Shown here: positions 6-57,042 of the stretch, one piece after another | How the letters are laid out: every line of letters begins with the position of its first letter | Numbering within the stretch: the stretch's first letter is position 1 | DNA from: a virus | Reading direction: 5' to 3' (one strand) | Virus record (IMG/VR): IMGVR_UViG_3300044684_000278 | Span: 1 to 64,000 of that record | Length of the DNA stretch: 64,000 nt | The notes under the pieces: generated by a model | Told to the model about the DNA's origin: nothing | The model's database searches: none | Seen by the model: only the letters and a program-made list of their open reading frames with translations | Position numbers and translations under genes: made by a program

Positions 6-3000
6 ATGAATAAAGTACTCAAAGGAGGCAAAGACAGTGCAGACATCCTGTTCTTCCTTTCCTCTATGAGAGACAGTTTAAAGGAACTCAGTGACCTGGG
101 TAACAAACTCCAGGAGCAGCAGGATAAACTGGGCAGGTTACAGACGGCAGCCCAGGAAAAACGTCAGCTCTCCTCACTCCAGGACCGGGTGGATTTCTTA
201 AACCAGGTACAGCAGGTGCTGATCGAGGATAAGAACAAGGTAATACCTGTGAACCCGAATGCTCCTGCACCGGAAGGTCAGGATGCCTACGTTACAGACG
301 TGGAGCTGGAGAGTGATCCAGATGCCCCAACCTACAAGGATAAGAAACCTAAGTTTGAGGAAGTGGGCTTCAACAAGACCTTCGGAAGGCACTACCTGGA
401 TGAGGAAGATAAAGAACTCAATACAGCTGATGGCTCTGACCGCTTCTTTGCTTTTACCGGCAAGCAGAACGTCATGGGCCAGGGCTATGAACTCTTAGTA
501 GTCACTGAGCACAATGATGAATTCGGGATCCGTCAATCGGACAAGAATCCGGATGACATCAAGCTGGTGGTGGTTAAAAAAGTAAGTGGAGAAGATGGTA
601 AGCCTGTTTATAAGTATGTTGGAGTGGATGGTAAGTTGCTTGATGCTCCTGATAAAGACAATATTGTCTACCGTAGTATGGCTAACGTTAATACTCTTAG
701 CGTTCAGCGTGTCCGTGATGATTATACCGTTCATGAGTCTACTACGGATGAAGACATCCAAAAGAAAATAGACGAGCACAAGGAGTACCAGAAAAACCTG
801 GTGGAACGCTCCAAGGAAGGTCCTGTCTATCTCAATGCTGTATCTGCCTCTCCTGGCGTGCAGCGTATTGAACGTACTCATGATGGTAAACCTGCAGAAG
901 CAGAAGTGGAAGGCCGTGTGGTGGAGGATGATCCGGACTGGACCAACCTGCACTCTGCCAACAACCCTGAAGCAGGTATCGGACTCCGTGTATCCACTGC
1001 AGACGGATCACTGGCACCTGGTGTGCTGGCTGGTCGTGTGGTGATGCAGGAGTATACCAATGATGAGGGCAGGAAGATCTGGGGAGATAAGGTGACCCGT
1101 GTGTTCAACCGTCTGCTCAACAAGGATGAAAAAGGAAAAGTGATTGAGGCCCTGGTGCGTCTGACTTCCCTTTTCAACCGGAAGAATTCCAAGGATCCAA
1201 GCATCCGTCTTACTGATGCTGAAGAGGCAGAGTACAACCTGATCTTCGGATACCTGAAGAACGTACTTCCTTGGGGCGGATGGAAAAACGGAGGTAACTC
1301 CCAACGCAGGAAGCTGTCCAATATGTTCCGTATTGACAGTGGTCTGAAACGGGGTGACTTCTCTATTCCATTCACAGAGCTGTCTATTCGTCAGAATGCA
1401 GATAAGCTCCTGGATGGTGTATATCACAATGTGAACAACAACACCCTTCAAAACAATGAGGAGTTCCGTGACATCCAGGTAAAAGATGGAAAGATCGTTC
1501 CCGGTAAATCCTACAAGACCTATGAAGAATACCTGCTGGGTAAAAGAGAAAATGGTGAGATGCCTCCGGTGTATACCTCCCTTCCAAGGGTGGATGCAGC
1601 ACGTCCTCAGCGTACCAACTCTTACCTGAACTGGGTGGATCCGTCCGTACAGTCTGTTAAGGAGCAGTCTCCTTACCAGCAGGGACAGATGACCCAGGAA
1701 AGGCATGATGAGATCACCAGCAAGATGGGTAAGCTTGAACGGATCGTAGCTGCAAAAGACACACTGAAGGACGAGTCCACAGAGGACCTGGCTAAAAAGC
1801 TGGAATATTTTGCCAAAGAAAATCCGGAGCTGGAAAATACTTTTGATAAAGATTTCCTGGAGCCTGCTGTACAGAAACTCGTGGAAGGCAAGACTGAAGA
1901 AGATATTCTCAAATCATTTGGCTCAGAAAATGAGTTCAACCGTGCTGTAGTTGCCCAGGCCCTGTCTGATTACATTGACAAGACACAAGCTCCGCAACTG
2001 GAGACACTGAAGCGTCAGTTGGAAAATGCTCCTAAGCCTAAGAAGCAGGAAGTAAGCCTGGATAACCCAGCTCCTGTAGCAGCCCCAGTTCAGCAAGGCC
2101 CTAAGAAGGCATCTGACCTGTTGGGCGGACTGGGTAAACCACAGTCTCAACAACAGCAACAGCAGGCTCCTGCCGCAAAACCAGGAAGTGCTTCTGCTTT
2201 ACTGGCCTCCAAACTGGGACAGCCACAGCAGACTGCTATTCCAAAACCATTGGAGCAGAAACCTGCTAATAAACAAATCCCTACAGTAGCGGACAGTGCC
2301 AAAGCCTCCCAGATGCTGGCAGGCAAATTAGGACTGCAGAACCAGGAAGCTGTTAAAACAGCAGCTCCGGTAGCAACTGCTTCTGAGAAGCATACAGATA
2401 TTCCGGCAGCCGTTGAAGCAGCCCAGCCTAAACTGGGTAAGCTAACCGCTACGGTATATACCAGCAAGGACCCGGCTTCCGGGGAGCTGACCAACCCGAT
2501 CACTGCTACCGTGGATATTCCGGATGGAAGACTGCAGGCAGGTAAGATGCTGTTGAAGCAGGCACTAATGGCTCAGATTCCTAATGAGGATGAGGATGTC
2601 CCATACCGTCTTTCCTTGGGTGAGGTAGAGCAGACCGAGGATTTTAAAGCCCTGGACAAGTTCATGAAAGAGAACCTGCCTCAGATCCCTGTTAAAAAAG
2701 TAGCAGAGCTGATCCATGGCAAAGCCTGGGGTATGTTCAAAAACGGAGCTATCTACATTTACAACAATGCAGAAATCGGTACCGGTTTCCACGAGGCTTT
2801 TGAGGCCGTGTGGGGCAGCTACCTAAGTGATAAAGAACAGCAGGACCTGGCTGAAGAATTCCGTGGCCGTGATGGTAAGTTCAAAAACCCCTTCACCCGT
2901 CTGACCAAGAACTATAAGGATGCCTCCCTGTATGATGTACGTGAGATGCTGGCAGAGGAATTCCGTAACTACATCCTGAACGGGCAGTTACCAGCAGAGG

Positions 3001-6000
3001 AAAAGACCCGTGGTTTCTTCCAGAGACTATGGGATTTCATCAAGCGTATCCTGGGACTGGCTCCTGAGCAGGCACAGGAGATGAACAGCAAGATCAATGC
3101 TGTGTTCAAGGCCATCAAAGCCGGTCAGTTCAAAGACCTGGATCCGATCCGGGAGTACTCACCTGTTCCTGAATACCGTGCCATTGGCCGGTTGACCCAG
3201 GAAGAGACAGCCCGTGCCATCCAGGGTCTGAACTACTACTTCTTCATGGAGTTGTACAAGAACGGAAACAACATTGATGCTCTTATAGACCGCTATGAAC
3301 CTAAGCTGTCCAACCAAATCCTTAATGACATCTTCAACAAAAGCCATGATGCCGTGGTGAAGAATGTCCAGATCCTGGGTGAGGGTATGCAGGACGAGCT
3401 CCGTCTTCGCAAAGAGGAATTATATGAGGAGTTCAAGAAGAATCTTTCCAGGTTCGGCCTTGACTTTGACGAGCATGATGACCTCATGGTGAAGGAACAG
3501 AACACTGTGAATGCATTGGGTATCCGTGACTCCATTTCCATAGATCCCAAGAAGATGTCTACTGTGAACGTGAAGCTCTTGTTAGCCTCACTTCCGCAGA
3601 CCCGCTATAACAGTGAAGGCAAGATCACACCTGTACGTGACCTGCAGATGAACCAGCCTATGCTGGTGGATCATGTGAAAGTGCATAACCTGCTCTTAAA
3701 TGAGTTAAGCAATATCGTTCCATCTTATGATGAGAACGGAAACCAGGTTGCTGCCCTGGATCAGATGTTCCAGAAGCTGGATCAGAAATACAAGTATCCG
3801 CAAACCGGAAACTATAAAGAAGGCTACAACTGGATCCAGAACCTGAAGGCCCGTCTGCGTTATGAGATGATGGATGGTACCAAATTCCCGGCAGAGGCCC
3901 TGACTGCGGATGACATCCGCCTGAGGATTGGTTTTATCAAAACCTTTACCAACGTAAAGACCATCCCGCAGAAGACGATAGTGGGAGAAGATGGATACAT
4001 CTATAACCTGAACCCGGTAGAGGGTACCAACATCGAGCGGGTACGGGATGAGTGGAGCAACAACCTGAAAAATGACCTGATCCAAAGGAGAGGTCAGAAA
4101 GGTATGGTGAAGCTGAACCCTGATGGTACCATGGAGATCAACCGTGATACCGACGAGTACAAGGATCTGATGAAGATGCTAGATCGTAAGAACAGCTTCT
4201 CCACAGAGGATGCTCAGCTGGCCCTCCGTAAACTGGGAATTACTTTTACAGGCACACCTGCACAGATGGATAAATACGGATCTGTTATCCGGGAAGATGC
4301 TATCCAGATCCTGGAGCAGCTCAAGGCAGGTTCCCTGAACTCTATTTCAGACATCTATGGATCCAATAAGATCGGTGGCCGTATCAACAGGCTGCTTTCC
4401 ATAGAAGCCGGGTTCAGCGGTGAGGATAATATCTTAAACTACATCAACGCCAATGGTGAGACCCAATACTCCGTGGGTATTCCATCCCTGTTCAGCAATA
4501 TGATCAACACGCTGAACACCGTGAAGACCCAGAAAGAGCTGGTACAGTCTGCACCGTGGCTGGGCACTATAGATGCTAAAACAGGTGAGGTAGTGCTTCA
4601 TCCATACCAGCAGAACTCAGAGCTTCTGAAAAAAGACGGGATACTCTTTGACAAAAAGGGCCGCAGAAGAGACGGGGCACGCCTGGAGTACCAGGTGATC
4701 TCCGGTGTGGGTACATCAGACTTTGAAGGCACTTCCACAGATGAACTGCAGTTCCCGGAACGGGTGGCCAACAAGATCCACTACCTGCTTCAGAATACTG
4801 TATACTCCAACATCAACTCTGATAAGAGCACCGAGTTCGGTATCTCTCTTCCAGGAAAGCTGATCGTTTCCAAGGGAGATGTGGCCAGCCTCTTATACTT
4901 TGATGGTAAAGAGGTGATCAACCACTATGTAAACCAGCTTACAGATGAAATGGCTGCTGCCGTATACAACAAAGCAAGGCCAAGCAACATCCAGTACTAT
5001 AAAGACCAGGTGGCCTCATTAGGGCACTTCAGAGACATTTTAGGGGCTGACCTGGTAGATAAGTTCAAACGTGAGGTAATAAGCCCTGAGAGCCGCTATA
5101 AAGGCCCACAGGCACACCTTAGATTCATTGAGGATAACCGTGCTGCCATTGACAAGGCTATCAAGGGTTACATGGAAAACAAGATTGACCAGACCGTTAA
5201 GTTCTTAAAGGACCTGGATCTGTTCCAAAAACCTGCCCTTGCCGGAAATGACCTGTACACCACGGACGCTATTGACAACGACATGCTGTCAAAGATCCTG
5301 GATACCAAGAGCACAGTGGCTATCAAGCATGATGACGGGGAGATCACAGAGCGTGTGGGTCTGACAGAGAATGACCTGAAAACACTGGCAGGTGTCCTGG
5401 CACTCAACGAGGAGATCCTGGTTACAGAACAGCATAAGTTAATCTACGGTCACCCTGCCTTCTACAAAGACCTTCCAAAGCGTGCCAATGGTGCTACTTC
5501 AACCAAGGAGCCTATGGTGGATGATCCGGATGTGATCAAGTGGATGGACAATAACATGGCCCGTAATGATGGCAAGCAGCGTTCCTCCGAGACACACCAG
5601 ACCTTCAAAGTCGTATCCTTCAAGGACCAGGATGTGGTAAGCCACTATTACCAGGATATAGCTGAGGGTATGTTTGCCTCCATGATCAAGACAGAGTCCA
5701 GCAAGACGGCTGCAGAGAAGAAGATCGGTGCCAAATTCACGGATGATGGCAAGCTCAAAGGCTTCATCACAGATAAGAAAGGCGGATACACTGGTCTGAT
5801 CAAGGCTTACCTGGAGCTCAATGAAGCGGATGCCATGGCCTGGGGTATGCCAGACATGGTTCGGGACATGCTGTTCCTTACAGGAAAGCTATCCAAGGAA
5901 CAACAAAAGCAGTTTGATTACGAGATTGCCTATGAGAAACTGGCCCTGGCTAAAAAGGGTGAGGCCAGGTATTCCCGTGAGGAATTAGAGGCTGCCAAAA

Positions 6001-9000
6001 AGATCGTAGAAAAAGGAAACCCTGGCTACGTGTTCCAGGTACTGAAACCACAGTACTTCGGTTACGCTGTGGATGGGGATACCCTGCACCCTGTGTTCCT
6101 GAAACACGCGGTTCAGCCTAAGTTCTTCCGCCATGTAGAAGGCACCCAGTATGAGGATCTATACAAAGCCCTGAAGAAAAGCCAGGTGGACATCATCGGT
6201 TTTGAGTCCGGGGAGAAAGTAGGTAACGTGATGGGCAAGAACGGCAAGTTCACCAGCATCTATAATGATAAAGGTACCGTGAACGTGACCAAGGCAGGTA
6301 ACCAGTACAGTCTTCCAGGAGATCTTCCAGTCCAACAATTATACACCAAGTTCTATGGTATCCAGGTGGAGACCAATGCCAAACCTAAAACAGAGGTGGT
6401 GCGTGGTACCCAGGTGACCAAACTGATCATGGTAAACTACTTTGAGAACGGTAAACCGGTTACCGAGCAGATTGGAAAGAAAATCCAGGAGTATAATAAT
6501 ACCCTGAAGACCATGATGCAGCTGGGTAAACAGAACCTGATCAAGGAGCTGGGACTTCGCCAGGATGAACAGGGTAATTACCACACAGAGGATCTGACCA
6601 AACTGGTGAAGACCCTGAGACGTGAGGCAGAAAGCCGTGATCTCCCGGATAACATGATCCAGGGTATTGACACCCTGAGCAATGAGGACGGATCCACTTC
6701 CCTGAAATACAGGTTTGATACTTTGATCAACCGGGAAAAGATTGACAACATCCTGAACTCCATTGTGGATTCCCGTGTGATCTCTGAGAAGATCCATGGT
6801 AAGGCATCCGTGCAGGTAGCTTCTACCCTGTACGAGAGTCAGCCAAGGAGCTTCATGTACCTGAAAGATGGGGTGTATACCCAGATGACCCCTGAGAACA
6901 TGGGCTCACTGACTGCAGAGGAACGCAAGACCATCAAGATGAAGTCATCTGACCTGAAGTTCTATGCAGACCAGAATGGAAAGATCCAGAGCATGGAAGT
7001 ATATCTTACCTGGCCATTCAAGGATTTCTCTCCTGAGCAGCTGGGCCTGAAACTGGAGAACGGTATTTACAAGCTCTCCGGAGACAGCAAGGTGGACAGC
7101 AGGTTACTAAAGTCACTGGGATTCCGTATCCCTACCCAGGCCATGAACTCCATTGAGTCCATCCAGATCAAGGGATTCACCCCACAGAACAACGGGGACA
7201 TGATCGTGGTGCCATCAGAGATCGTTGGTAAATCCGGTTCCGACTTTGATATTGATAAACTCAATCTCTATTTGCCTAACTACTTCTTCAACAGTGCCAC
7301 TAAGTCACTGGAGTTTGCAGAGTGGAAGGGCTCTATTGAGAATACCAAAAAATACATTGCGGATCTCTTTGACAAGGGACACCTGCTTCCTGCAGATGCT
7401 GCCAAGGAGCTGGACCGCTATATTGCGGAAGAGAATGACCTGCTGGGTACTGATCCTGAGGATAAGCTGTTAAAGGCCATCTTCCAGGGCCTCTTCTCCG
7501 AGGAGCGTCTGACCTCAGAGTTCATGGATGACTTCTCCAAACAGAAGAACTACCAGTCCCTGAGAGATGAAGTTGTTGATTCCCTTACCAAGAAAGCCCT
7601 GCAGAACCACTTCATGAACCTGATGCATGACCTGGTGCAGGATCCGTTCAACTACCGTCAGCTGGTCGTGCCCAACGGTGTGGATACCATCAAGCCTCTG
7701 GCAGATGAGATCAATGCCCTGAAGATCCAGGCTGGCACCAAGTCAAAAGAAGACGAGAAGAGCTTTACTTTCCTAAGAAGTTTTGTGGGTAACAACCAGA
7801 TCCGTGAACGGTACTTAACGGCCAAACGAATGGTGGGCATTGCTGCCCTGCACTCTACTTTCCACTCTATGGCACAAGTATCAGGTCTGAAGATCAACCG
7901 TGACTTTGCAACCAAAGGCATCTATTACATTGCCGGGAAGAACGAAGAGCACAGGCTTGTAGATATTAAACTCACACACATCCCGGCCAACGAGGATGGT
8001 ACCTTCAACATCGGTCACCGTACTGATGCCAGTGGTGCCTGGGTGAGTGAGCTGATCTCGGAGGAACTATCCGGGTTCGTGGATGGTGCCAAAGATCCAT
8101 TCGTGTTTGACCTGAACTTCTCTATGAACACGGCTGCCACCTGGTTCTACCTGCAACACGTAGGGGTACCGGTGGACGAGATTGCCTACTTCTTTGGTCA
8201 GCCCGTGCTGGATCAGTACTTTGAGGAGTTTGCCAAGAACCGTGCAGGATTCAAGAAGATCAATGATGAAAGCCTGACCAGGGAAATGCTCTTCTACAAA
8301 GTGGTTAGTCCATACTTTGAAAAGATCACGGGCCGTAACATCATGGCTGAAATTGCAGCCGTGGAGGATGATCCTTTTGGGAAATCTGCCCTTAAGAAAT
8401 CCCTTGCTGTGGAGATGAACACCATTGCCAATCAGTTCTCCAAGTTCAATAAAACAGACTTAAGAGACCAAATTGCCCAGGGCAAACAGGCAGATCCAAA
8501 GATGCAGATTGCCATCCTGATGAATTACCTGGAGTATAACGCACAAGCACAACTGCTGGGTAACTTCATCAATGCCATCTCTTATGACAACAAGAAGACC
8601 AAGTCTTTACAGGAGAATATGATGCAGGTGGCACGCTGGGAGAAATCCAAGCAGGAAGGCTTCGTGGCCAATCCTGATGCCATCATGGATCATACGTTCC
8701 TGGGTGAGATGAAAAAACAGAAAGAAGACATCTTCAAGATGTTCAAGAACTTCTTCATCACTTTGAGTCCATCTGTTCAGAAAGCCTTTGAGCCTATGGA
8801 GAACAAGATCAATGATCCTGACTTCTTTGCATCCAAGGATAACACGGTGGATCTGCTCAACCGCTACCAGAACTTTGTGATCTCTTACCTGCTGCATACT
8901 ACTCCGTTCCAGGATGCAGATGAGCAGGAAGTGACCCTGAACAAGCTTTACAGGGATTACTTCCTTGGAGACAACTCCATGGCCAAGATCCTGCAGAAGT

Positions 9001-9926
9001 ATAAGAACTCTTCGGATCCTTACGTGTCCGGAAGCCTTGCCATACAGGAACTGCTCCCGGTAATGAGTGAGGATACTACCCGTCCAGATAATATCCGTCT
9101 GTTCCGCAACAAGCTGGACACCTACCAGATCAACAACATCGTTGAAGACCTGGATAACCTGAAAGCTTATGCCATGCAGGTGGCGGACAGTGACCTGGAA
9201 CACTTCGTGGACAACCTGGCCAAGTTTACCCTGGTACAAAGTGGTATGCAGGGAAGCCGTCTGGATTACCGCAAGATCCTTTCCACACAGGTATATTCTT
9301 CCCTGGTGAAGAACATCATAGATGCTTTTGAAGCTTCCGGAAAAGAACTGGATCCTAAGAGGGTATGGAAAGCTTTCCACCAGAACAACTGGAGCAACAA
9401 CTCAGTAGTACCTAAGGTACCTAACTGGCTGCGTCCTAAAGAAGGCAAGCTTTTAATTAAAGACGGATCTTCACTGCTGGTGAATGACTACCTGATGAAG
9501 TACGTGAAGAAACCAGGCATCTCCCGTCAACAGCTTAATGAGATGCGTAGAAATAAAACCATGCAGAATGCCTTTGAGCCGATCCTCTATGAAAAGAGAA
9601 ATCAGCTGGCAGATGGCAAGTGGGTTTATGCTCCTGTAAACAAACTGGGTGACGGTACCCGCTTTACAGAAATCTATGATGAGGATAAAGCATCCATCCT
9701 GCAGAAGAACGGAGATGTGGGAGACGCCGGTGGTGGATTCACAGGTGGCTATATCAGTGTGATGGAATTGTTGGCAAATAAGACAGCCAATAACGTAAAT
9801 GTGGAGGATAATTCGTATAATAGTACAACACCTAAAACAGCCTCCGAGCTCCTGCTCCAATCAGAAAAGCAGGCTGTCGTGCAACAACTAAAAGACAACG
9901 GAACCATAGAACAAAACTGCTCATGA
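6..9926 (+). CDS. Giant virion RNA polymerase, crAss-like
   Basis: I identify this 3306-residue protein as the virion RNA polymerase of crAss-like phages. Residues 2413-2417 read DFDID, within SGSDFDIDKLNLYLPN, the metal-binding signature of the double-psi-beta-barrel polymerases related to YonO and eukaryotic RNA-dependent RNA polymerases. In the crAss-like phage phi14:2 the homologue (gp66, about 2,200 residues) is packaged and transcribes early genes; this one is about 1,100 residues longer. The first ~70 residues look coiled coil. Residues ~680-820 are a Pro/Gln/Ala-rich linker with three copies of a short LLxxKLG-type motif. Residues 929-933 read HEAFE, a zincin-like motif lacking the second His. 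The ATG overlaps a possible upstream stop (TGATG), so the gene is probably complete, although no in-frame stop lies between it and the window edge. Its TGA overlaps the next ATG (ATGA), so translation is probably coupled. Confidence 0.88.
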   Translation: MNKVLKGGKDSADILFFLSSMRDSLKELSDLGNKLQEQQDKLGRLQTAAQEKRQLSSLQDRVDFLNQVQQVLIEDKNKVIPVNPNAPAPEGQDAYVTDVELESDPDAPTYKDKKPKFEEVGFNKTFGRHYLDEEDKELNTADGSDRFFAFTGKQNVMGQGYELLVVTEHNDEFGIRQSDKNPDDIKLVVVKKVSGEDGKPVYKYVGVDGKLLDAPDKDNIVYRSMANVNTLSVQRVRDDYTVHESTTDEDIQKKIDEHKEYQKNLVERSKEGPVYLNAVSASPGVQRIERTHDGKPAEAEVEGRVVEDDPDWTNLHSANNPEAGIGLRVSTADGSLAPGVLAGRVVMQEYTNDEGRKIWGDKVTRVFNRLLNKDEKGKVIEALVRLTSLFNRKNSKDPSIRLTDAEEAEYNLIFGYLKNVLPWGGWKNGGNSQRRKLSNMFRIDSGLKRGDFSIPFTELSIRQNADKLLDGVYHNVNNNTLQNNEEFRDIQVKDGKIVPGKSYKTYEEYLLGKRENGEMPPVYTSLPRVDAARPQRTNSYLNWVDPSVQSVKEQSPYQQGQMTQERHDEITSKMGKLERIVAAKDTLKDESTEDLAKKLEYFAKENPELENTFDKDFLEPAVQKLVEGKTEEDILKSFGSENEFNRAVVAQALSDYIDKTQAPQLETLKRQLENAPKPKKQEVSLDNPAPVAAPVQQGPKKASDLLGGLGKPQSQQQQQQAPAAKPGSASALLASKLGQPQQTAIPKPLEQKPANKQIPTVADSAKASQMLAGKLGLQNQEAVKTAAPVATASEKHTDIPAAVEAAQPKLGKLTATVYTSKDPASGELTNPITATVDIPDGRLQAGKMLLKQALMAQIPNEDEDVPYRLSLGEVEQTEDFKALDKFMKENLPQIPVKKVAELIHGKAWGMFKNGAIYIYNNAEIGTGFHEAFEAVWGSYLSDKEQQDLAEEFRGRDGKFKNPFTRLTKNYKDASLYDVREMLAEEFRNYILNGQLPAEEKTRGFFQRLWDFIKRILGLAPEQAQEMNSKINAVFKAIKAGQFKDLDPIREYSPVPEYRAIGRLTQEETARAIQGLNYYFFMELYKNGNNIDALIDRYEPKLSNQILNDIFNKSHDAVVKNVQILGEGMQDELRLRKEELYEEFKKNLSRFGLDFDEHDDLMVKEQNTVNALGIRDSISIDPKKMSTVNVKLLLASLPQTRYNSEGKITPVRDLQMNQPMLVDHVKVHNLLLNELSNIVPSYDENGNQVAALDQMFQKLDQKYKYPQTGNYKEGYNWIQNLKARLRYEMMDGTKFPAEALTADDIRLRIGFIKTFTNVKTIPQKTIVGEDGYIYNLNPVEGTNIERVRDEWSNNLKNDLIQRRGQKGMVKLNPDGTMEINRDTDEYKDLMKMLDRKNSFSTEDAQLALRKLGITFTGTPAQMDKYGSVIREDAIQILEQLKAGSLNSISDIYGSNKIGGRINRLLSIEAGFSGEDNILNYINANGETQYSVGIPSLFSNMINTLNTVKTQKELVQSAPWLGTIDAKTGEVVLHPYQQNSELLKKDGILFDKKGRRRDGARLEYQVISGVGTSDFEGTSTDELQFPERVANKIHYLLQNTVYSNINSDKSTEFGISLPGKLIVSKGDVASLLYFDGKEVINHYVNQLTDEMAAAVYNKARPSNIQYYKDQVASLGHFRDILGADLVDKFKREVISPESRYKGPQAHLRFIEDNRAAIDKAIKGYMENKIDQTVKFLKDLDLFQKPALAGNDLYTTDAIDNDMLSKILDTKSTVAIKHDDGEITERVGLTENDLKTLAGVLALNEEILVTEQHKLIYGHPAFYKDLPKRANGATSTKEPMVDDPDVIKWMDNNMARNDGKQRSSETHQTFKVVSFKDQDVVSHYYQDIAEGMFASMIKTESSKTAAEKKIGAKFTDDGKLKGFITDKKGGYTGLIKAYLELNEADAMAWGMPDMVRDMLFLTGKLSKEQQKQFDYEIAYEKLALAKKGEARYSREELEAAKKIVEKGNPGYVFQVLKPQYFGYAVDGDTLHPVFLKHAVQPKFFRHVEGTQYEDLYKALKKSQVDIIGFESGEKVGNVMGKNGKFTSIYNDKGTVNVTKAGNQYSLPGDLPVQQLYTKFYGIQVETNAKPKTEVVRGTQVTKLIMVNYFENGKPVTEQIGKKIQEYNNTLKTMMQLGKQNLIKELGLRQDEQGNYHTEDLTKLVKTLRREAESRDLPDNMIQGIDTLSNEDGSTSLKYRFDTLINREKIDNILNSIVDSRVISEKIHGKASVQVASTLYESQPRSFMYLKDGVYTQMTPENMGSLTAEERKTIKMKSSDLKFYADQNGKIQSMEVYLTWPFKDFSPEQLGLKLENGIYKLSGDSKVDSRLLKSLGFRIPTQAMNSIESIQIKGFTPQNNGDMIVVPSEIVGKSGSDFDIDKLNLYLPNYFFNSATKSLEFAEWKGSIENTKKYIADLFDKGHLLPADAAKELDRYIAEENDLLGTDPEDKLLKAIFQGLFSEERLTSEFMDDFSKQKNYQSLRDEVVDSLTKKALQNHFMNLMHDLVQDPFNYRQLVVPNGVDTIKPLADEINALKIQAGTKSKEDEKSFTFLRSFVGNNQIRERYLTAKRMVGIAALHSTFHSMAQVSGLKINRDFATKGIYYIAGKNEEHRLVDIKLTHIPANEDGTFNIGHRTDASGAWVSELISEELSGFVDGAKDPFVFDLNFSMNTAATWFYLQHVGVPVDEIAYFFGQPVLDQYFEEFAKNRAGFKKINDESLTREMLFYKVVSPYFEKITGRNIMAEIAAVEDDPFGKSALKKSLAVEMNTIANQFSKFNKTDLRDQIAQGKQADPKMQIAILMNYLEYNAQAQLLGNFINAISYDNKKTKSLQENMMQVARWEKSKQEGFVANPDAIMDHTFLGEMKKQKEDIFKMFKNFFITLSPSVQKAFEPMENKINDPDFFASKDNTVDLLNRYQNFVISYLLHTTPFQDADEQEVTLNKLYRDYFLGDNSMAKILQKYKNSSDPYVSGSLAIQELLPVMSEDTTRPDNIRLFRNKLDTYQINNIVEDLDNLKAYAMQVADSDLEHFVDNLAKFTLVQSGMQGSRLDYRKILSTQVYSSLVKNIIDAFEASGKELDPKRVWKAFHQNNWSNNSVVPKVPNWLRPKEGKLLIKDGSSLLVNDYLMKYVKKPGISRQQLNEMRRNKTMQNAFEPILYEKRNQLADGKWVYAPVNKLGDGTRFTEIYDEDKASILQKNGDVGDAGGGFTGGYISVMELLANKTANNVNVEDNSYNSTTPKTASELLLQSEKQAVVQQLKDNGTIEQNCS

Positions 9927-36107: not shown

Positions 36108-37265
36108 TTAGATGGTGGCCGCTTGCGGCTGTGTGGTAAGTACATCCTCCAGCAAGTCCTCAATCTCTTTCTCTTTCTGCTTTACAGGATGCCCTTCCAG
36201 GATATGGGCTACCACAGCTTCAACCTCTTCTACCTGGGACTGATCCAGTTTACCTGCAGAAGCATAGCCGGTAAGGAGTGCATCAATCTCTGCCACGGCC
36301 TCATCCACGCTCTGTGCATCATGCAGTGACCACAGCATGTCCGCCTTGCTCATCAGGGCTTTCATTTCCTGGTTCATTAGCTGGGCTGCCAGTTGGTTTC
36401 CGGCTTCCGCATCAATCATGATGGTGGCTACCTTCACCATGGATTTATCCAGGGTATAGTTCCACACGAAAGAGACGGCTTTGATCAGTTCAGGAACGAA
36501 AGTCAGTGTCCGGTCAGAACACCTGTTATAAGCTACGTTCAAGAACTTCTCCAGCTTAGATGTTGGAATGGTTACTCCATCCATTTCTGCCCTGGTAGGG
36601 AGACCGATCTTCATGGTCTCTTTATACTCTTTGGCACCCCGGTCATAGTAACGGATCATGTCTCCGGCTGAGATCCGGTTCACCTGCATTTTCAGCAGGA
36701 ACCTGTCCCAGAAAGGAGAGCCCGCTTCTTCTTTGGGGATCTCGTTACAGGTAGCAATAAAGAGCTTCCATTTGCAGGGGATCTTATGCTTACCATTAAA
36801 GAGGAACTTCTCGTTCATGATAGAGAGCAGTGAATTTCTAATATTACTGCTGGCCTTGTCCACCTCGTTGATGATTACGATCTCTGCCTCTGTGATAGGG
36901 GCAATGATCTCATAACGGGGTTCGGCTCCAAAGAGCTTGGCCATGTCGGGTAATCCTTTGACCTCGCTACTTTTGGTGCCTTCATCTGTTTCCAGGATGT
37001 AGATCTTTTCCATGAACTCCTGCTGTGCCTTCTTCATGGCAGCCACATCTCCTGGAGGTACGTCTTTCAATAACCAGGCTTTGGCAAAATCAATAACGGT
37101 CTTGGTCTTACCGGTTCCAGGAGGGCCTACCAGTAATACCGGCTTTTCTGTTGCTCGGGCAAGGGAGAGCATTCTGAACACTTCTTCTTTGTTGATTAGA
37201 TTGGTGTCAATAGTAAGTACGTTCTGAGCTTTATTTTTAGTAAGGGATTTGATAGCTTTTGCCAT
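36108..37265 (-). CDS. MoxR-type AAA ATPase, first copy
   Basis: 385 residues from the ATG at 37265 (MAKAIKSLTKNKAQN). Walker A is GPPGTGKT at residues 47-54; Walker B is IVIINEVDKAS; sensor and arginine-finger regions follow (FIATCNEIPKEEAGSPFWDR). The frame is open upstream for 145 further codons, but these overlap the preceding gene and look unlike protein of this family. It pairs with the VWA gene downstream, only 9 bases away. Confidence 0.85.
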   Translation of the reverse strand: MAKAIKSLTKNKAQNVLTIDTNLINKEEVFRMLSLARATEKPVLLVGPPGTGKTKTVIDFAKAWLLKDVPPGDVAAMKKAQQEFMEKIYILETDEGTKSSEVKGLPDMAKLFGAEPRYEIIAPITEAEIVIINEVDKASSNIRNSLLSIMNEKFLFNGKHKIPCKWKLFIATCNEIPKEEAGSPFWDRFLLKMQVNRISAGDMIRYYDRGAKEYKETMKIGLPTRAEMDGVTIPTSKLEKFLNVAYNRCSDRTLTFVPELIKAVSFVWNYTLDKSMVKVATIMIDAEAGNQLAAQLMNQEMKALMSKADMLWSLHDAQSVDEAVAEIDALLTGYASAGKLDQSQVEEVEAVVAHILEGHPVKQKEKEIEDLLEDVLTTQPQAATI

Positions 37266-37332
37266 GATTTCTTGTAGTTGTGTTTGATCTGAATTAGTAG
37301 TGGAAACAGGGGAAGCGTCGTCCCCCTGCTGA

Positions 37333-37899
37333 TTAGAGGTTGAGGAAGCTTTGACCGGCTTCCACGTCAGAATCTTGCTGGGACTCTGATGCAACCAGGC
37401 TGTTATCACTAATGCCAGCTGATCCAGCCTGGGTACTACCCACACCTGGTTTTGAGGCTCCCAAAGGAAGTACGACTCCGTTGGATTTGTTAGCCTGGGC
37501 TGGTAGGTCAGCACCACTTCCTGAGGATTGGTTGGTCTGCCCAGCTTCTTTAGCCGCTGCTGGTACATTCCCTGTACTGACGGTTGGCTGTTGGCTATCT
37601 TTTGCAGCATCCACTGATGGAGTTGCTCCAGTTCCTGCTGCAGGTTTGTTTGCTGCTGATTCCGTATTGTTAGCATTGTCTTTGTCTTTTGTGTCATCAA
37701 TAATGCGGAAGATGACTCCTTCCGGCTCTTTACCTACAAGCTTGGGGTGCTTCATGATCACTTTGATCTGGAACTCCTTGGCATTATACTTCTCTTCAAT
37801 GCTACCGAACCCCTGGTCTTCTGCTTTCAGCCAGGTTAAACCGTTACTTAAATCCTCTAATAACTGACTCACAGTCAGATCTACTGGTTTGAATGCCAT
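37333..37899 (-). CDS. Protein with conserved head and disordered tail beside MoxR/VWA
   Basis: 188 residues. The first ~70 residues are ordered (MAFKPVDLTVSQLLEDLSNG, then FQIKVIMKHPKLVG, VIFRIIDDT). The remainder is Ala/Ser/Gly/Gln-rich and probably unstructured. It precedes the MoxR gene by 67 bases and may be the substrate or adaptor of that system. Function unknown. Confidence 0.55.
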   Translation of the reverse strand: MAFKPVDLTVSQLLEDLSNGLTWLKAEDQGFGSIEEKYNAKEFQIKVIMKHPKLVGKEPEGVIFRIIDDTKDKDNANNTESAANKPAAGTGATPSVDAAKDSQQPTVSTGNVPAAAKEAGQTNQSSGSGADLPAQANKSNGVVLPLGASKPGVGSTQAGSAGISDNSLVASESQQDSDVEAGQSFLNL

Positions 37900-48792: not shown

Positions 48793-49185
48793 TCAAAATC
48801 TGATTTCCATGGAGTCCTTCCCGATGTTAACGGATTTAGCCCCGTCTCCAATCTCAACTGATACTCCGTTAATGATGAATTTATACGTGCTGGTATTGTT
48901 CATGACTCCAACCACACTGGATCCGGTAGTGGATGTCCTGTTGGAGTCTGGCTTCATCTGCTCCCGGACCTTTGCTAAACTGTCTGTGGGAGAGATGGCC
49001 CCGGATGGCCTCTTGCCTTTTACAGAGGGGAACTGCAGTCCTTCCTCCCTAAACCGGTTCTTATAGTTGTGTACACTGGATACAGCAATATGGAAGTGCT
49101 GGGCAATGTCCTCAGGATATACACCCTGTACAACCATTGCTTTCATTTCTTCTACCTGATCAGTGGATAGTCTTTTGTTTGCCAT
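48793..49185 (-). CDS. Helix-turn-helix regulator beside attP
   Basis: 130 residues. Residues ~8-45 (QVEEMKAMVVQGVYPEDIAQ, then HFHIAVSSVHNYKNRF) form a transposase- or resolvase-type helix-turn-helix. The middle is Ser/Thr-rich; the end (YKFIINGVSVEIGDGAKSVN) is beta-rich and could oligomerise. It is transcribed away from the integrase, across a 518-base control region with four TGTAGA/TCTACA sites. It is the best visible candidate for a regulator of the integration/lysis choice or an excision factor; that is inference. Confidence 0.65.
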   Translation of the reverse strand: MANKRLSTDQVEEMKAMVVQGVYPEDIAQHFHIAVSSVHNYKNRFREEGLQFPSVKGKRPSGAISPTDSLAKVREQMKPDSNRTSTTGSSVVGVMNNTSTYKFIINGVSVEIGDGAKSVNIGKDSMEIRF

Positions 49186-49389: not shown

Positions 49390-49449
49390 AATTCAGGCTT
49401 CCAGGATATAACGTATCCCAGAAACCCTTTACTTTGTCCAGCAGAATTC

Positions 49450-49636
49450 AGTGAGTAATACGTGAGTAGGTCACTTTGGTGAGTAAGAATATCAGCTTCC
49501 AGCAACGGTTTGAAGATGCGGGTTCGAGTCCCGTCCGGTCCGCTTTATAGTTCTTAAGTAGCTGATAATCAAGATATTCTTAGTCCCAAAAGTGAGTCTT
49601 TTGAGTGGTTCCAGTGAGTAATCCGTGAGTAACTCC
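49450..49636 (+). other. Probable attP: tRNA 3' end with flanking arm-type repeats
   Basis: At 49518-49542 there is a perfect tRNA T-arm (GCGGG-TTCGAGT-CCCGT) followed by the 3' acceptor strand CCGGTCC and discriminator G, with no 5' half of a tRNA. Phages that integrate into tRNA genes carry such a fragment as the attP core. Both sides carry near-identical direct repeats: CAGTGAGTAATACGTGAGTA (from 49450) and CAGTGAGTAATCCGTGAGTA (from 49614), with further GTGAGT copies near 49481 and 49590. These look like integrase arm sites. The fragment resembles tRNA-Asp of Bacteroidota, an unverified impression. Confidence 0.75.
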
Positions 49637-49703
49637 GGATTGATGAAAAAATCTACTCACTGAATCCGCTGAAACCCAAGCCAGGATTCAATCACATAAG
49701 ACT

Positions 49704-50819
49704 ATGAATATCTTGTTTTATTTAAAGGACTCAAAGAACAAAGCCGGTGAGAAAGCTCTCTATGTCCGGCTCTCCCAAGGCACCCAAATTACAGAATTAT
49801 CCCTGGGTGTCCGCATGAAACCCTCCCAGTTTAAGTCTACATCTTCCAAGCAGTACATGAATGCTGTTCAAGCCAAGCTCCTGGAGATAGAGGGAGAACT
49901 TCTTCTACAAAGTACCTGTACCCCACAAATGATCAAGCATGAGTACTTAAGCCGTACTACGCAGGTATATAACCTCCTTGATGTGTGGGATCAGTACCTG
50001 GTGTATTACCAAAAGAACAAGCTCCAGACCGGAGAGGTCAAGGAGGTGTCCTATGATAAGTTCGTCCTTTCCCAGGATTACATGAAAAAGTACCTCAGAG
50101 AGCTGAAACTTACGGACATCCCTTTGAACATGATCCATTCTGATTTCATCATGGAGTTTTTCAATTTTCTCAGAAGGAGTGTATCCCATAATCATGCTCA
50201 GAAGATGGTCAGCAAGTTCAAGACAGTGATCATCTGGGCCCATTCCAAGGGCTGGATCACCAAGACCCCCTTTACCCAGGTCAAGATCCGGCCAAACAAA
50301 ACCAAGGTGGTCTATCTGGTGGACAGTGAGCTGAAGAGGCTGCACAAGACCAAGTACCATCCCCGGCTGGAGAAGGTGCGTGATGCTTTTCTTTTTCAGT
50401 GTTATACAGGGCTTGCCTACATAGACATGAGCCAGCTTACCCAGGAAATGATTGAGGATAACAAGATCATGATTGACCGTCAGAAGACGGGTGAGCCCTG
50501 CTACATCCCCTTAATGAAGCCAGCCAAGGAAATACTGGAAAAGTACAGGTATAAGCTCCCGGTAAATTCCAACCAGAAAATGAATGCTTACTTAAAAGAA
50601 GTAGGCACCCTGGCAAAAATCAACAAAGAGCTGCATACTCACGTTGGCAGGCATACTTTTGCCACCATTGCCCTAAATAACGGAATGCCCGTGACCACTT
50701 TACAGGTCATACTGGGGCACTCTGACATCAGGACCACAATGAAGTATGCCAAGTTGATCCGGAATACGATAGATCAGGACATGGTCAAGCTGGAAGATAA
50801 GTTATCTGCTATAGTATAA
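49704..50819 (+). CDS. int: Tyrosine integrase
   Basis: 371 residues. The N-terminal ~90 residues form an arm-binding domain of the Bacteroidota type (MNILFYLKDSKNKAGEKALY), residues ~95-195 a SAM-like core-binding domain and the rest the catalytic domain. Visible active-site residues are Lys261, His313 and Arg316 (HVGRHTFAT), His339 (LGHSDIRTT) and the nucleophile Tyr348 (KYAKL). The position of the first catalytic Arg is Ala238 (CYTGLAYIDMSQL). IntDOT of CTnDOT also lacks this Arg, so activity is still plausible. It lies beside the probable attP. Confidence 0.93.
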   Translation: MNILFYLKDSKNKAGEKALYVRLSQGTQITELSLGVRMKPSQFKSTSSKQYMNAVQAKLLEIEGELLLQSTCTPQMIKHEYLSRTTQVYNLLDVWDQYLVYYQKNKLQTGEVKEVSYDKFVLSQDYMKKYLRELKLTDIPLNMIHSDFIMEFFNFLRRSVSHNHAQKMVSKFKTVIIWAHSKGWITKTPFTQVKIRPNKTKVVYLVDSELKRLHKTKYHPRLEKVRDAFLFQCYTGLAYIDMSQLTQEMIEDNKIMIDRQKTGEPCYIPLMKPAKEILEKYRYKLPVNSNQKMNAYLKEVGTLAKINKELHTHVGRHTFATIALNNGMPVTTLQVILGHSDIRTTMKYAKLIRNTIDQDMVKLEDKLSAIV

Positions 50820-52769: not shown

Positions 52770-54023
52770 TTACTTGTTTAATTGTGCATCTGTTTCCGGA
52801 GTCACATTGATATACTTCCCACCTGTACGCTCACAAAGACTTTTCAGCTCATTGTTAGGTCCGTTGTAAAGAGTGATGGCATTGGTCTTCCAGGTAAGCT
52901 TGTCTGTCTTCACGCTATCCTGGCCATCGTTGATCACCAGGATCTCCGGCTGATCTACGGACAGGTCAATGTTCAGATTGAACAGCTTGTGGTTTTCCAT
53001 GATCTCTTTACGGATCCTGTCAATGATGAGTCCCACTTCTGTGTCTCCACCACTGGGGTTATTGTTGAAGTGTTTCCAGAACTCCAGGGCAGTCTCCCGG
53101 TTATAGATATGATACCATTTAAACGTACCATGCTCCAGGTTGTTTTTGGTCAGGAAGAAGCAGAAGAAGATCTCACACTCTTCCTTGATACAGTAAGATA
53201 ACCTGTCGGCCACGATGGACATCACCCACTGTTGTTTCTGTGGGGAGTTCATGGATCCTGAAAAGTCCACCAGCATGATGATCTTCTGCTTGGACTCTTC
53301 ACTTGTTACCGGGGTGTTGACGATCAGGTCCTTGGTTACCAGTTTCTGGTTGAAGTTGGGCATCATACGCTGATACAGCTGGCTGTTTACCAGCTCACCA
53401 TATTCTGCCATCCTTTTCTGCTTATGTACCTGGGAGTTGGTCACCCTTCTCTCATGCACCACCTTCTTGATCTCAAAGCTCTTACCGAAGGCTTCCACCA
53501 TGGCAATCCGCTGCATCATATCCAGCCTTTTATCAAAGTCCTGCATGTCTGCCCGGTTGTCAAAGAGCTCATTTATAGTAGAAGACTCAAACTGCTCCTC
53601 ATCCGGCACGCCAACAAATACCTCTGTGAGGTCTTTCTCCGTCATCTTATCCGGGGAAGGCATAGCTCCGCCCTTTTGTTTCTGCTTCCGCTTCATCAGC
53701 ATGAGCAGGTTCATAGCCTTGTCCAAAGGAGAGATGCCAGGAACAAACTTGGTCCTTAAAGCCTCATAGAATCCTTCCTTGGCGTTTGCCCTTTCCAGCT
53801 CCTCCGGACTTAGCTTAGCCGGATCTTTGTATTTATCTTCCACGATGTCATAGGACATCACCATCTTGTGGTAGAAGAAACGGGCCAGCTCTTTGGCTAC
53901 ATGGGTATTCTGCAGGTCAAGACCCTTGCGGTGGAGAGTGCTCTCCACCACATAGGTCATTGGGGTCCAGTAATACTCATGTTCCCGTATGTAAAAATCT
54001 TCTTGCTTATTTCTCAATAACAT
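52770..54023 (-). CDS. VWA-domain protein, second MoxR partner
   Basis: 417 residues. The C-terminal VWA domain has the MIDAS motif DFSGS at Asp253 (IIMLVDFSGSMNSPQKQQWV), GGDTEVGLIIDRI and VINDGQD. The N-terminal ~240 residues are helical and charged and unlike those of the first VWA protein, so the two pairs are not a recent duplication. Its start overlaps the end of the second AAA gene by 17 bases. Confidence 0.85.
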   Translation of the reverse strand: MLLRNKQEDFYIREHEYYWTPMTYVVESTLHRKGLDLQNTHVAKELARFFYHKMVMSYDIVEDKYKDPAKLSPEELERANAKEGFYEALRTKFVPGISPLDKAMNLLMLMKRKQKQKGGAMPSPDKMTEKDLTEVFVGVPDEEQFESSTINELFDNRADMQDFDKRLDMMQRIAMVEAFGKSFEIKKVVHERRVTNSQVHKQKRMAEYGELVNSQLYQRMMPNFNQKLVTKDLIVNTPVTSEESKQKIIMLVDFSGSMNSPQKQQWVMSIVADRLSYCIKEECEIFFCFFLTKNNLEHGTFKWYHIYNRETALEFWKHFNNNPSGGDTEVGLIIDRIRKEIMENHKLFNLNIDLSVDQPEILVINDGQDSVKTDKLTWKTNAITLYNGPNNELKSLCERTGGKYINVTPETDAQLNK

Positions 54024-55146
54024 CTTGGATCTCCTTCAGTTTAGATTGTAAGAATTTTTCATAGCCGGATACGCGGCCACTGATCTGTTTCATCAGCTCG
54101 TCATCCACCTTCTTGGCTTTCAGAGTCTGAATATCCGCATGGATCTCTTTCAGTACCACTTTGGCACGACGAACATTGTCCAGGGAATTCAGGGTGACAC
54201 TATTGGCCTCTTTGATGTTACCATCAATCTTAGCTATCAGGTCCTCAATCACCTGTACATTTTTGTACTTGGAGATCTCAGCATCCACCAGGGATTTGTT
54301 CTTGCCAGAGAAATCTGCCATGAACTTCAGGCCACCCATATCACCACCGGTCTTCTCCAGGATACGGGCTGCTTTAATGGCAGTACGCGGAGAAACCACG
54401 GTTCCGTTCTGGGCCAGTTTCTCCATGATATAAGAAAGCTGGCTGAATGGCTTGCCGAACATTTTGTTGAACATGAAGGAATAAGTATCCTTAGTGTATG
54501 CATTCCACTCTACTTTATACTCTAAAGGAAAACGTTCCATGAGGGCCTTCAGTGAGTCGTTCTTGGTGAACTCTTCACGGGTCTTGTTAGTACAGCACAC
54601 GATGAGCTTGGTCTTGATCTCAAATACCTGTGTGCCGTTACGGAACTTGCCGGAGGTCAGGATGTCTTTTAACTGTTCCAGGATATAATCCGGAGCATCC
54701 ATCAACTCTTCAAAGATCACGTACTCAAAGTTCATGAAAGAGTTTTCTACCAGGAATTCCAGGGCACCTGTGTCATTGAACTTCTTGATGTCAATGCCAC
54801 CAAACAGGGAATCGGTAGTAGTACCGCTACCCATTGTCTTTACAAACGGCTCAATACCTTTTGATTCAAAGAAGTATTCAGTGAACTCTGATTTACCGTG
54901 ACCGCCTTTACCAAACAGGATGATATTCTCTCCGGTCAGGAGTGCCAAGTCAAGGGCCTTGTTCAGATCTTCCATGAATACGAACTTGGTAGGATCTGAT
55001 TTGGTTTTTGGAGCAGCAGCAGGAGCTTCTGCAGGAGCAGGAGTTTCTTTTCCGGTTTCAGCTTGAGCTGATTTGTTTTTTAACATGCTTGGTGCTTTGA
55101 TAGCCACACCATTGGTTTTCTTTACTGCTGTTTCAGTGGTACTCAT
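54007..55146 (-). CDS. MoxR-type AAA ATPase, second copy
   Basis: 379 residues from the ATG at 55146 (MSTTETAVKKTNGVA). Walker A is GKGGHGKS at residues 79-86 (IILFGKGGHGKSEFTEYF), Walker B is YVIFEELMDAPDYILEQLKD, and sensor 1 is LIVCCTNKTREEF. The first ~50 residues are Ala/Pro/Lys-rich and disordered. The last ~90 residues are helical. It overlaps its VWA partner gene, so they are probably made in fixed ratio. Function of MoxR/VWA pairs in phages is unsettled. Confidence 0.84.
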   Translation of the reverse strand: MSTTETAVKKTNGVAIKAPSMLKNKSAQAETGKETPAPAEAPAAAPKTKSDPTKFVFMEDLNKALDLALLTGENIILFGKGGHGKSEFTEYFFESKGIEPFVKTMGSGTTTDSLFGGIDIKKFNDTGALEFLVENSFMNFEYVIFEELMDAPDYILEQLKDILTSGKFRNGTQVFEIKTKLIVCCTNKTREEFTKNDSLKALMERFPLEYKVEWNAYTKDTYSFMFNKMFGKPFSQLSYIMEKLAQNGTVVSPRTAIKAARILEKTGGDMGGLKFMADFSGKNKSLVDAEISKYKNVQVIEDLIAKIDGNIKEANSVTLNSLDNVRRAKVVLKEIHADIQTLKAKKVDDELMKQISGRVSGYEKFLQSKLKEIQDVIEK

Positions 55147-55180
55147 GATTTTTGTGTTGATTAAATAGTGAATTATTTTG

Positions 55181-55465
55181 TTAACTGTTTTTTGCTTGTA
55201 GCTGTAAAGCCAGCCGGTCAAGGGCTGACTCAATTAGAATAATAGTGTCGGAGAGGGGATCTTTAGCAAGTTCTCTCCAGTAGTAACGACCTTCCTGGCC
55301 GTCCTCCCAGCGGACTCCTGCACCTATATCGGAGATCCATTTTGTGATGATCCCCTTTTTACCCTCTCCTCTCTTGGTTCGGTCGTTGCTGGATTTTATA
55401 CCTTCCTCAGAGATGATAACCTTTGTTCCTACCGGACCAGTACTTTGGGTAAGGTGCTTAGACAT
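55181..55465 (-). CDS. Small beta-rich protein with shared C-terminal helix
   Basis: 94 residues. GTKVIISEEGIKSSNDRTKR then KGIITKWISDIGAGVRWEDG form a beta domain with a basic face (GQEGRYYWREL resembles the YYWxxL ending of the tandem relatives). The C-terminal LIESALDRLALQLQAK is the shared family helix. The start overlaps the neighbour by eight bases. Function unknown. Confidence 0.6.
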   Translation of the reverse strand: MSKHLTQSTGPVGTKVIISEEGIKSSNDRTKRGEGKKGIITKWISDIGAGVRWEDGQEGRYYWRELAKDPLSDTIILIESALDRLALQLQAKNS

Positions 55466-56955: not shown

Positions 56956-56972
56956 AGTGATTTGATTTTTGC

Positions 56973-57042
56973 ACGGGCAGACAGACTCGAACTGCCAATC
57001 TCCTCCTCAAATGGGGTGTCCTATCCATTAGACGATACCCGT
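56973..57042 (-). tRNA. tRNA, probably Gln (UUG), with a weak anticodon stem
   Basis: On the minus strand a 7-base acceptor stem ACGGGTA / TGCCCGT, a D-arm GTC-TAATGGATAG-GAC and a T-arm GGCAG-TTCGAGT-CTGTC all pair. The anticodon arm CCCCATTTGAGGAGGAG has at least two mismatches in either register: one gives UUG (Gln) with A37, the other UGA. The 5' half resembles phage tRNA-Gln genes (GGGTATCGTCTAATGG), so Gln is my choice. No encoded CCA. A phage tRNA may supplement codon supply or replace a host tRNA cleaved by defence nucleases. Confidence 0.75.

Follow-up and report, generated by a model that had tools for sequence, protein, structure and literature searches.

The region between positions 49449 and 49660 of the window (the whole 64,000-nucleotide stretch of viral DNA that was analysed, positions 1 to 64,000 of IMG/VR record IMGVR_UViG_3300044684_000278) is, by our reading of its sequence and with a probability that we put at about 0.83, the working attP of a temperate phage that would target tRNA-Asp genes and whose integration cassette appears to be optional and exchangeable. 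The evidence for this reading comes from the anatomy of the site, the closure of the phage genome, the intact integrase next to the site, the recurrence of the design with other tRNA cores in relatives, the absence of the cassette from the same locus in other relatives, and a crAss-like phage found integrated in a bacterial chromosome.

A tRNA-Asp core between arm-type sites

Positions 49518-49542 (GCGGGTTCGAGTCCCGTCCGGTCCG) are identical to the T-arm, the 3' strand of the acceptor stem and the discriminator of tRNA-Asp(GTC) from many bacteria, and the C at position 49543 also agrees with tRNA-Asp(GTC), so that the core occupies 49518-49543 on the plus strand (GCGGGTTCGAGTCCCGTCCGGTCCGC). In particular, the two strands of the T-stem (49518-49522 and 49530-49534) enclose the T-loop (49523-49529) and are followed by the acceptor 3' strand (49535-49541), the discriminator G (49542) and the C at 49543. 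A first-pass annotation had described a T-arm and acceptor 3' strand without the 5' half of a tRNA, and this is what we found: neither ARAGORN nor Rfam calls a tRNA at 49518-49543, and no tRNA-like sequence, that is no 5' half, lies upstream of the core. The span that the annotation gave for the tRNA end (49511-49542) was right at its end and 7 nt too early at its start, where identity begins only at 49518. When the 25-mer 49518-49542 was scanned against 84,980 species genomes, essentially all of the matches listed were tRNA-Asp(GTC) genes; those listed came mostly from Chitinophagaceae, Pedobacter and other Bacteroidota, and from gammaproteobacteria too. A tRNA gene with this 3' end, which the annotation had proposed to look for in Bacteroidota, does therefore exist there.

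On either side of the core are the repeats that the annotation had called near-identical; these are 20 bp long, lie at 49449-49468 (CAGTGAGTAATACGTGAGTA) and 49612-49631 (CAGTGAGTAATCCGTGAGTA) on the plus strand, and agree at 19 of 20 positions. Each repeat is a pair of GTGAGTA sites with an 11-bp period, beginning at 49451 and 49462 in the left (P) pair and at 49614 and 49625 in the right (P') pair. A motif count adds a third left site at 49479-49485 (plus strand) and a third right site, inverted, at 49654-49660 (minus strand), making three arm-type sites on each side of the core. Six of the 18 copies of GTGAGTA in the genome fall within the 231 bp from 49440 to 49670, where 0.03 would be expected. 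The core is also bracketed by a 23-bp inverted repeat with 87% complementarity (left arm 49471-49493, right arm 49573-49595, both given on the plus strand). The same attP is present on another contig of this species (L002/L234), and over 700 bp the two sites differ at one base, position 49517, which is T in the window and C, the tRNA-Asp base, in the other strain. This position is the edge of the tRNA identity, and the difference is suggestive, if not proof, of a past exchange with a chromosome.

Approximately 160 bp past the core begins the tyrosine integrase that the annotation had placed after the site, an intact ORF of 371 aa at 49704-50819 on the plus strand, which domain profiles and residue alignment identify as IntDOT-like. 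The protein scores 63 bits against Pfam Phage_integrase and 43 bits against SAM_5; its score against Arm-DNA-bind_5, 21.7 bits, is slightly under the 22.6-bit cut-off. The order of these domains (Arm-DNA-bind_5, SAM_5, Phage_integrase) is as in IntDOT and the integrases of Bacteroidota, from which the window integrase differs in that its carrier is a phage of 136 kb that encodes a giant polymerase. (We considered whether the Ala at the Arg-I position marks a decayed enzyme and rejected the idea, because most of the Bacteroidota relatives examined have the same residue.) The nearest matches found among the integrases of genomes are approximately 35-47% identical, and we expect the enzyme to be catalytically active. 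Across the attP, and divergent from int, a 130-aa helix-turn-helix (HTH) protein is encoded at 48793-49185 on the minus strand; its structure model was of low confidence and too uncertain for a fold search. The co-occurrence of this gene with the integrase in relatives (see below) suggests that it is part of the same cassette and presumably encodes a directionality factor or regulator.

Could the fragment be the remnant of a phage tRNA gene, unconnected with integration? The phage does encode several real tRNAs, but the missing 5' half, the exact identity to host 3' ends, the flanking arm repeats, the integrase 160 bp away and the recurrence of this arrangement with different tRNAs among relatives contradict this explanation, and we rejected it as scarcely credible. 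Moreover, no relative has the fragment within an intact tRNA, a finding that the annotation had named as one that would refute its reading. The site instead resembles classical tyrosine-integrase tRNA att sites in having a tRNA 3' end on the phage, a core of T-stem and loop, outer arm sites and an adjacent integrase. What distinguishes the window system from these is the crAss-like lineage in which it occurs and the constancy of the HTH partner while integrase type and tRNA target are swapped.

A closed genome of a crAss-like phage

The full record is 136,320 bp long with a perfect 127-bp direct terminal repeat, so that the genome is closed and measures 136,193 bp. Because the record closes on itself and phage DNA lies on both sides of the site, the attP is free and is not the end of a prophage, a possibility that closure of the genome led us to reject; the annotation's description of an uninterrupted attP with phage genes on both sides was thus accurate. 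Elsewhere in the window a tRNA-Ser(TGA) gene is present at 56971-57042, with eight more tRNA genes in the rest of the genome (L123 9136-9208; L124 1702-2159 and 4236-4307), and genes for MoxR-type AAA ATPases (bpMoxR and related phage ATPase families) lie at 54007-55233 and 36108-37700.

Genes for a crAss-type TerL, portal and major capsid protein (MCP) are present in the conserved order, and the three proteins match head-and-packaging PHROG families. TerL is 24-25% identical to that of Crassvirales, and the nearest portal proteins are those of Leptolyngbya phage Lbo-JY46 (35%) and then Cellulophaga phage phi17:2 (26%). A 4,667-aa ORF that spans the ends of the record (into 6-9926) contains the motif DFDID at 7242-7256 on the plus strand (position computed from the ORF), which we take to be the motif of a virion RNA polymerase. 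In portal trees the clade of the window phage joins Lbo-JY46, Lightbulbvirus and epsilon crAss (support 100/99 and 100/100) and falls outside the named ICTV families of Crassvirales; the TerL tree did not resolve its placement. Portal phylogeny thus places the window phage in a large environmental clade, sister to the ICTV Crassvirales, with portal relatives in at least 592 IMG/VR stretches, the 80 kept being 67-78% identical. The annotation's crAss-like phage with a giant polymerase is therefore apt in an extended sense, in which the portal groups with epsilon crAss, phi17:2 and Lbo-JY46, and not in the sense of the ICTV families. Note that one or other of the palindromes TGATTATCA and TGATAATCA recurs close to several att cores of the clade.

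Reviews and papers on isolates describe crAss-like phages as strictly lytic, and the reviews attribute their persistence to phase variation or to carrier states (PMC10136315, PMC8042965). The Crassvirales isolates crAss001 and crAss002, whose TerL, portal and giant polymerase are related to those of the window phage, have no integrase and reportedly cannot form lysogens (PMC8042965, PMC10136315). Epsilon members have been suggested to be temperate from their repressor genes; one of these, csAssE-Sib, so predicted from repressor and antirepressor genes (PMC11054128), has in common with the window phage the order TerL-portal-structural-MCP and the portal branch, but lacks a PF00589 integrase. 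In the window phage, in contrast, a profile scan of 83 early ORFs recognised no repressor of the CI/S24 type, a class that profiles can miss. A study of the pig gut lists 12 crAss-like prophages by TerL (PMC12454387). In the literature examined we found no att site for Crassvirales.

The integrase cassette among relatives

A PF00589 integrase was found in two of the 30 clade records searched, one from the same species and one other (G014). The HTH gene occurred in one of 16 clade records searched, and this was again G014, the only one of the 16 with an integrase. A scan with the single HTH protein matched the same species only; two scans with HTH alignments yielded 12 contigs, which together with the window record make 13. 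In all 13 of these records, found as they were through the HTH gene, an integrase adjoins that gene. Those records that have a detected portal belong to the same clade, since their portals are 73-75% identical to that of the window (100% for the same species). The integrases fall into five sequence groups (A, B1, B2, C and D, with B1 and B2 66% identical to one another), and tRNA-like cores adjoin them. The core of group A, that of the window, is tRNA-Asp from the T-stem; in groups B1 and B2 it is tRNA-Val(TAC) from the anticodon arm to the 3' end; in group C it is tRNA-Asp from the T-loop, with TGTTGTAAA arm repeats on both sides; and in group D, read by eye, it is a tRNA 5' half.

Three integrase-free relatives (G003, G005 and G006) keep the order of the neighbouring genes and lack the cassette. 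In one of them, G006, a 123-bp repeat closes the genome, and inspection of its cassette-free gap revealed no tRNA fragment. Members with and without an integrase are interspersed in the portal tree, where parsimony requires six changes, of which at least two are forced, though the bootstrap did not settle the matter. On this comparison of sequences, int-attP-HTH is an optional, exchangeable module at a conserved locus of the clade. The presence or absence of the cassette at one locus and the exchange of integrase type would also be expected of a small mobile element living as a parasite on the phage, one that moves itself and does not integrate its carrier. We consider such an element very unlikely, however, because each locus has a single att core inside the cassette and not a bounding pair, no boundary repeats surround the cassette, and the recombined sites of the chromosomal prophage described below bound a whole phage.

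Integration in a chromosome, the host and a proposed mechanism

In one Bacteroidota genome (G293), a crAss-like phage is integrated within a bacterial contig of 1.61 Mb. The prophage, of approximately 91 kb (G293:C1 907589-998656), lies at a tRNA-Met gene in the order complete tRNA-Met(CAT) gene, phage, repeated tRNA 3' end; its attL and attR share 50 identical bp and are separated by 91,018 bp. A 442-aa integrase is encoded at the end of the prophage beside the repeated tRNA end. When the core is reconstituted, AAAAGTATTAACAAAAGTATTAAC flanks it on each side, a layout shared with the window. Bacterial genes continue beyond the prophage, with a TonB-dependent receptor and a Na/H exchanger on one side and glycerol kinase and glycerophosphate oxidase on the other. 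Its TerL, portal and MCP match the same PHROGs as those of the window phage (E = 6e-137, 2e-125 and 4e-97), and a 5,143-aa protein matches the polymerase of the window phage. With 26% identity in TerL and 22% in the portal it is outside the window clade, and its portal is closer to the Crassvirales side. This prophage shows that integration at tRNA genes occurs in crAss-like phages; it proves nothing for the window phage itself.

We entertained the idea that the integrase and attP of the window phage, though real, act chiefly in resolving or circularising genomes, or were acquired recently and are hardly used, the phage being effectively lytic or in a carrier state. The lack of a recognised repressor, the ParB-like protein that the phage encodes and the many close relatives without the cassette all fit such a phage. 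Against this, a core made of a tRNA 3' end has no evident use except chromosomal integration, five integrase groups occur at one locus, most of them with a tRNA core, and in G293 a crAss-like phage has really integrated, so that we regard this alternative as improbable and favour a working attP that would support true lysogeny.

For such a site, the N-terminal arm domain of the integrase would bind the GTGAGTA arm sites, and the circularised 136-kb genome would recombine its core with the 3' end of the host tRNA-Asp(GTC) gene. Strand exchange would probably occur inside the 7-nt T-loop, a placement suggested by the loop's length, by the symmetry of its stem and by the start of the group C core at the T-loop. 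(A passage in PMC8371274, citing Williams 2002 and Campbell 2003, gives the anticodon loop, the T loop and the 3' end as the three sub-sites used by tyrosine integrases at tRNA genes.) After insertion, the tRNA 3' end brought by the phage would make the tRNA gene whole again, giving an expected attL of host tRNA-Asp 5' half, core and CTTTATAGTTCTTAAG and an expected attR of phage GGTTTGAAGATGC, core and host downstream DNA; the HTH protein would presumably act in setting directionality or in regulation.

The host phylum is likely Bacteroidota, to which the relatives of the integrase in Bacteroidota genomes point. We did not take the exact tRNA match alone as a guide to the host, because the 25-mer is present in gammaproteobacteria too. 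The integrated prophages that the annotation had hoped to find in host genomes did not appear: portal searches of approximately 1,290 distinct Bacteroidota genomes found none of the close clade, the sole trace being a 56% identical portal fragment on one 7-kb contig (G1000:C184 5773-7047). This contig, from a bin of the same order as a Bacteroidales MAG (G039), is a weak host hint or a binning artefact. The tRNA-Val tail has one exact match in Bacteroidota, around position 1500 of L244 from a Chitinophagales genome, and no intact tRNA is called around this 3' half in the 3-kb locus; we rejected it as a host clue, as it seems to be a tRNA end that has been displaced and now adjoins another element.

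The biochemistry envisaged here is classical; what is new, as far as the literature examined shows, is the definition of crAss-like att sites, the exchangeable cassette and an exact chromosomal prophage. We think it rather likely that true temperate lineages exist among crAss-like phages, in the environmental sister clade as well as nearer Crassvirales; these would integrate genomes of 90-136 kb at tRNA genes by means of an exchangeable int-attP-HTH cassette that has been gained, swapped and lost repeatedly, and the obligate lysis of gut crAss phages would be specific to their lineage. A defined attP, a tRNA target, a cassette family with several kinds of core and one prophage make lysogeny in this assemblage testable. 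They also point towards the hosts of an environmental clade that is abundant and uncultured, and provide integrases that might serve as site-specific tools in Bacteroidota.

A search of the window phage genome for tmRNA gave nothing at gathering score. In cassette-bearing relatives a tmRNA gene (RF00023, 66-90 bits) lies within approximately 4 kb of the integrase (L237 1549-2191; L239 1307-1820; L242 1522-1968; L243 713-1130), and ARAGORN calls a tmRNA in the G293 prophage at G293:C1 985944-986341.
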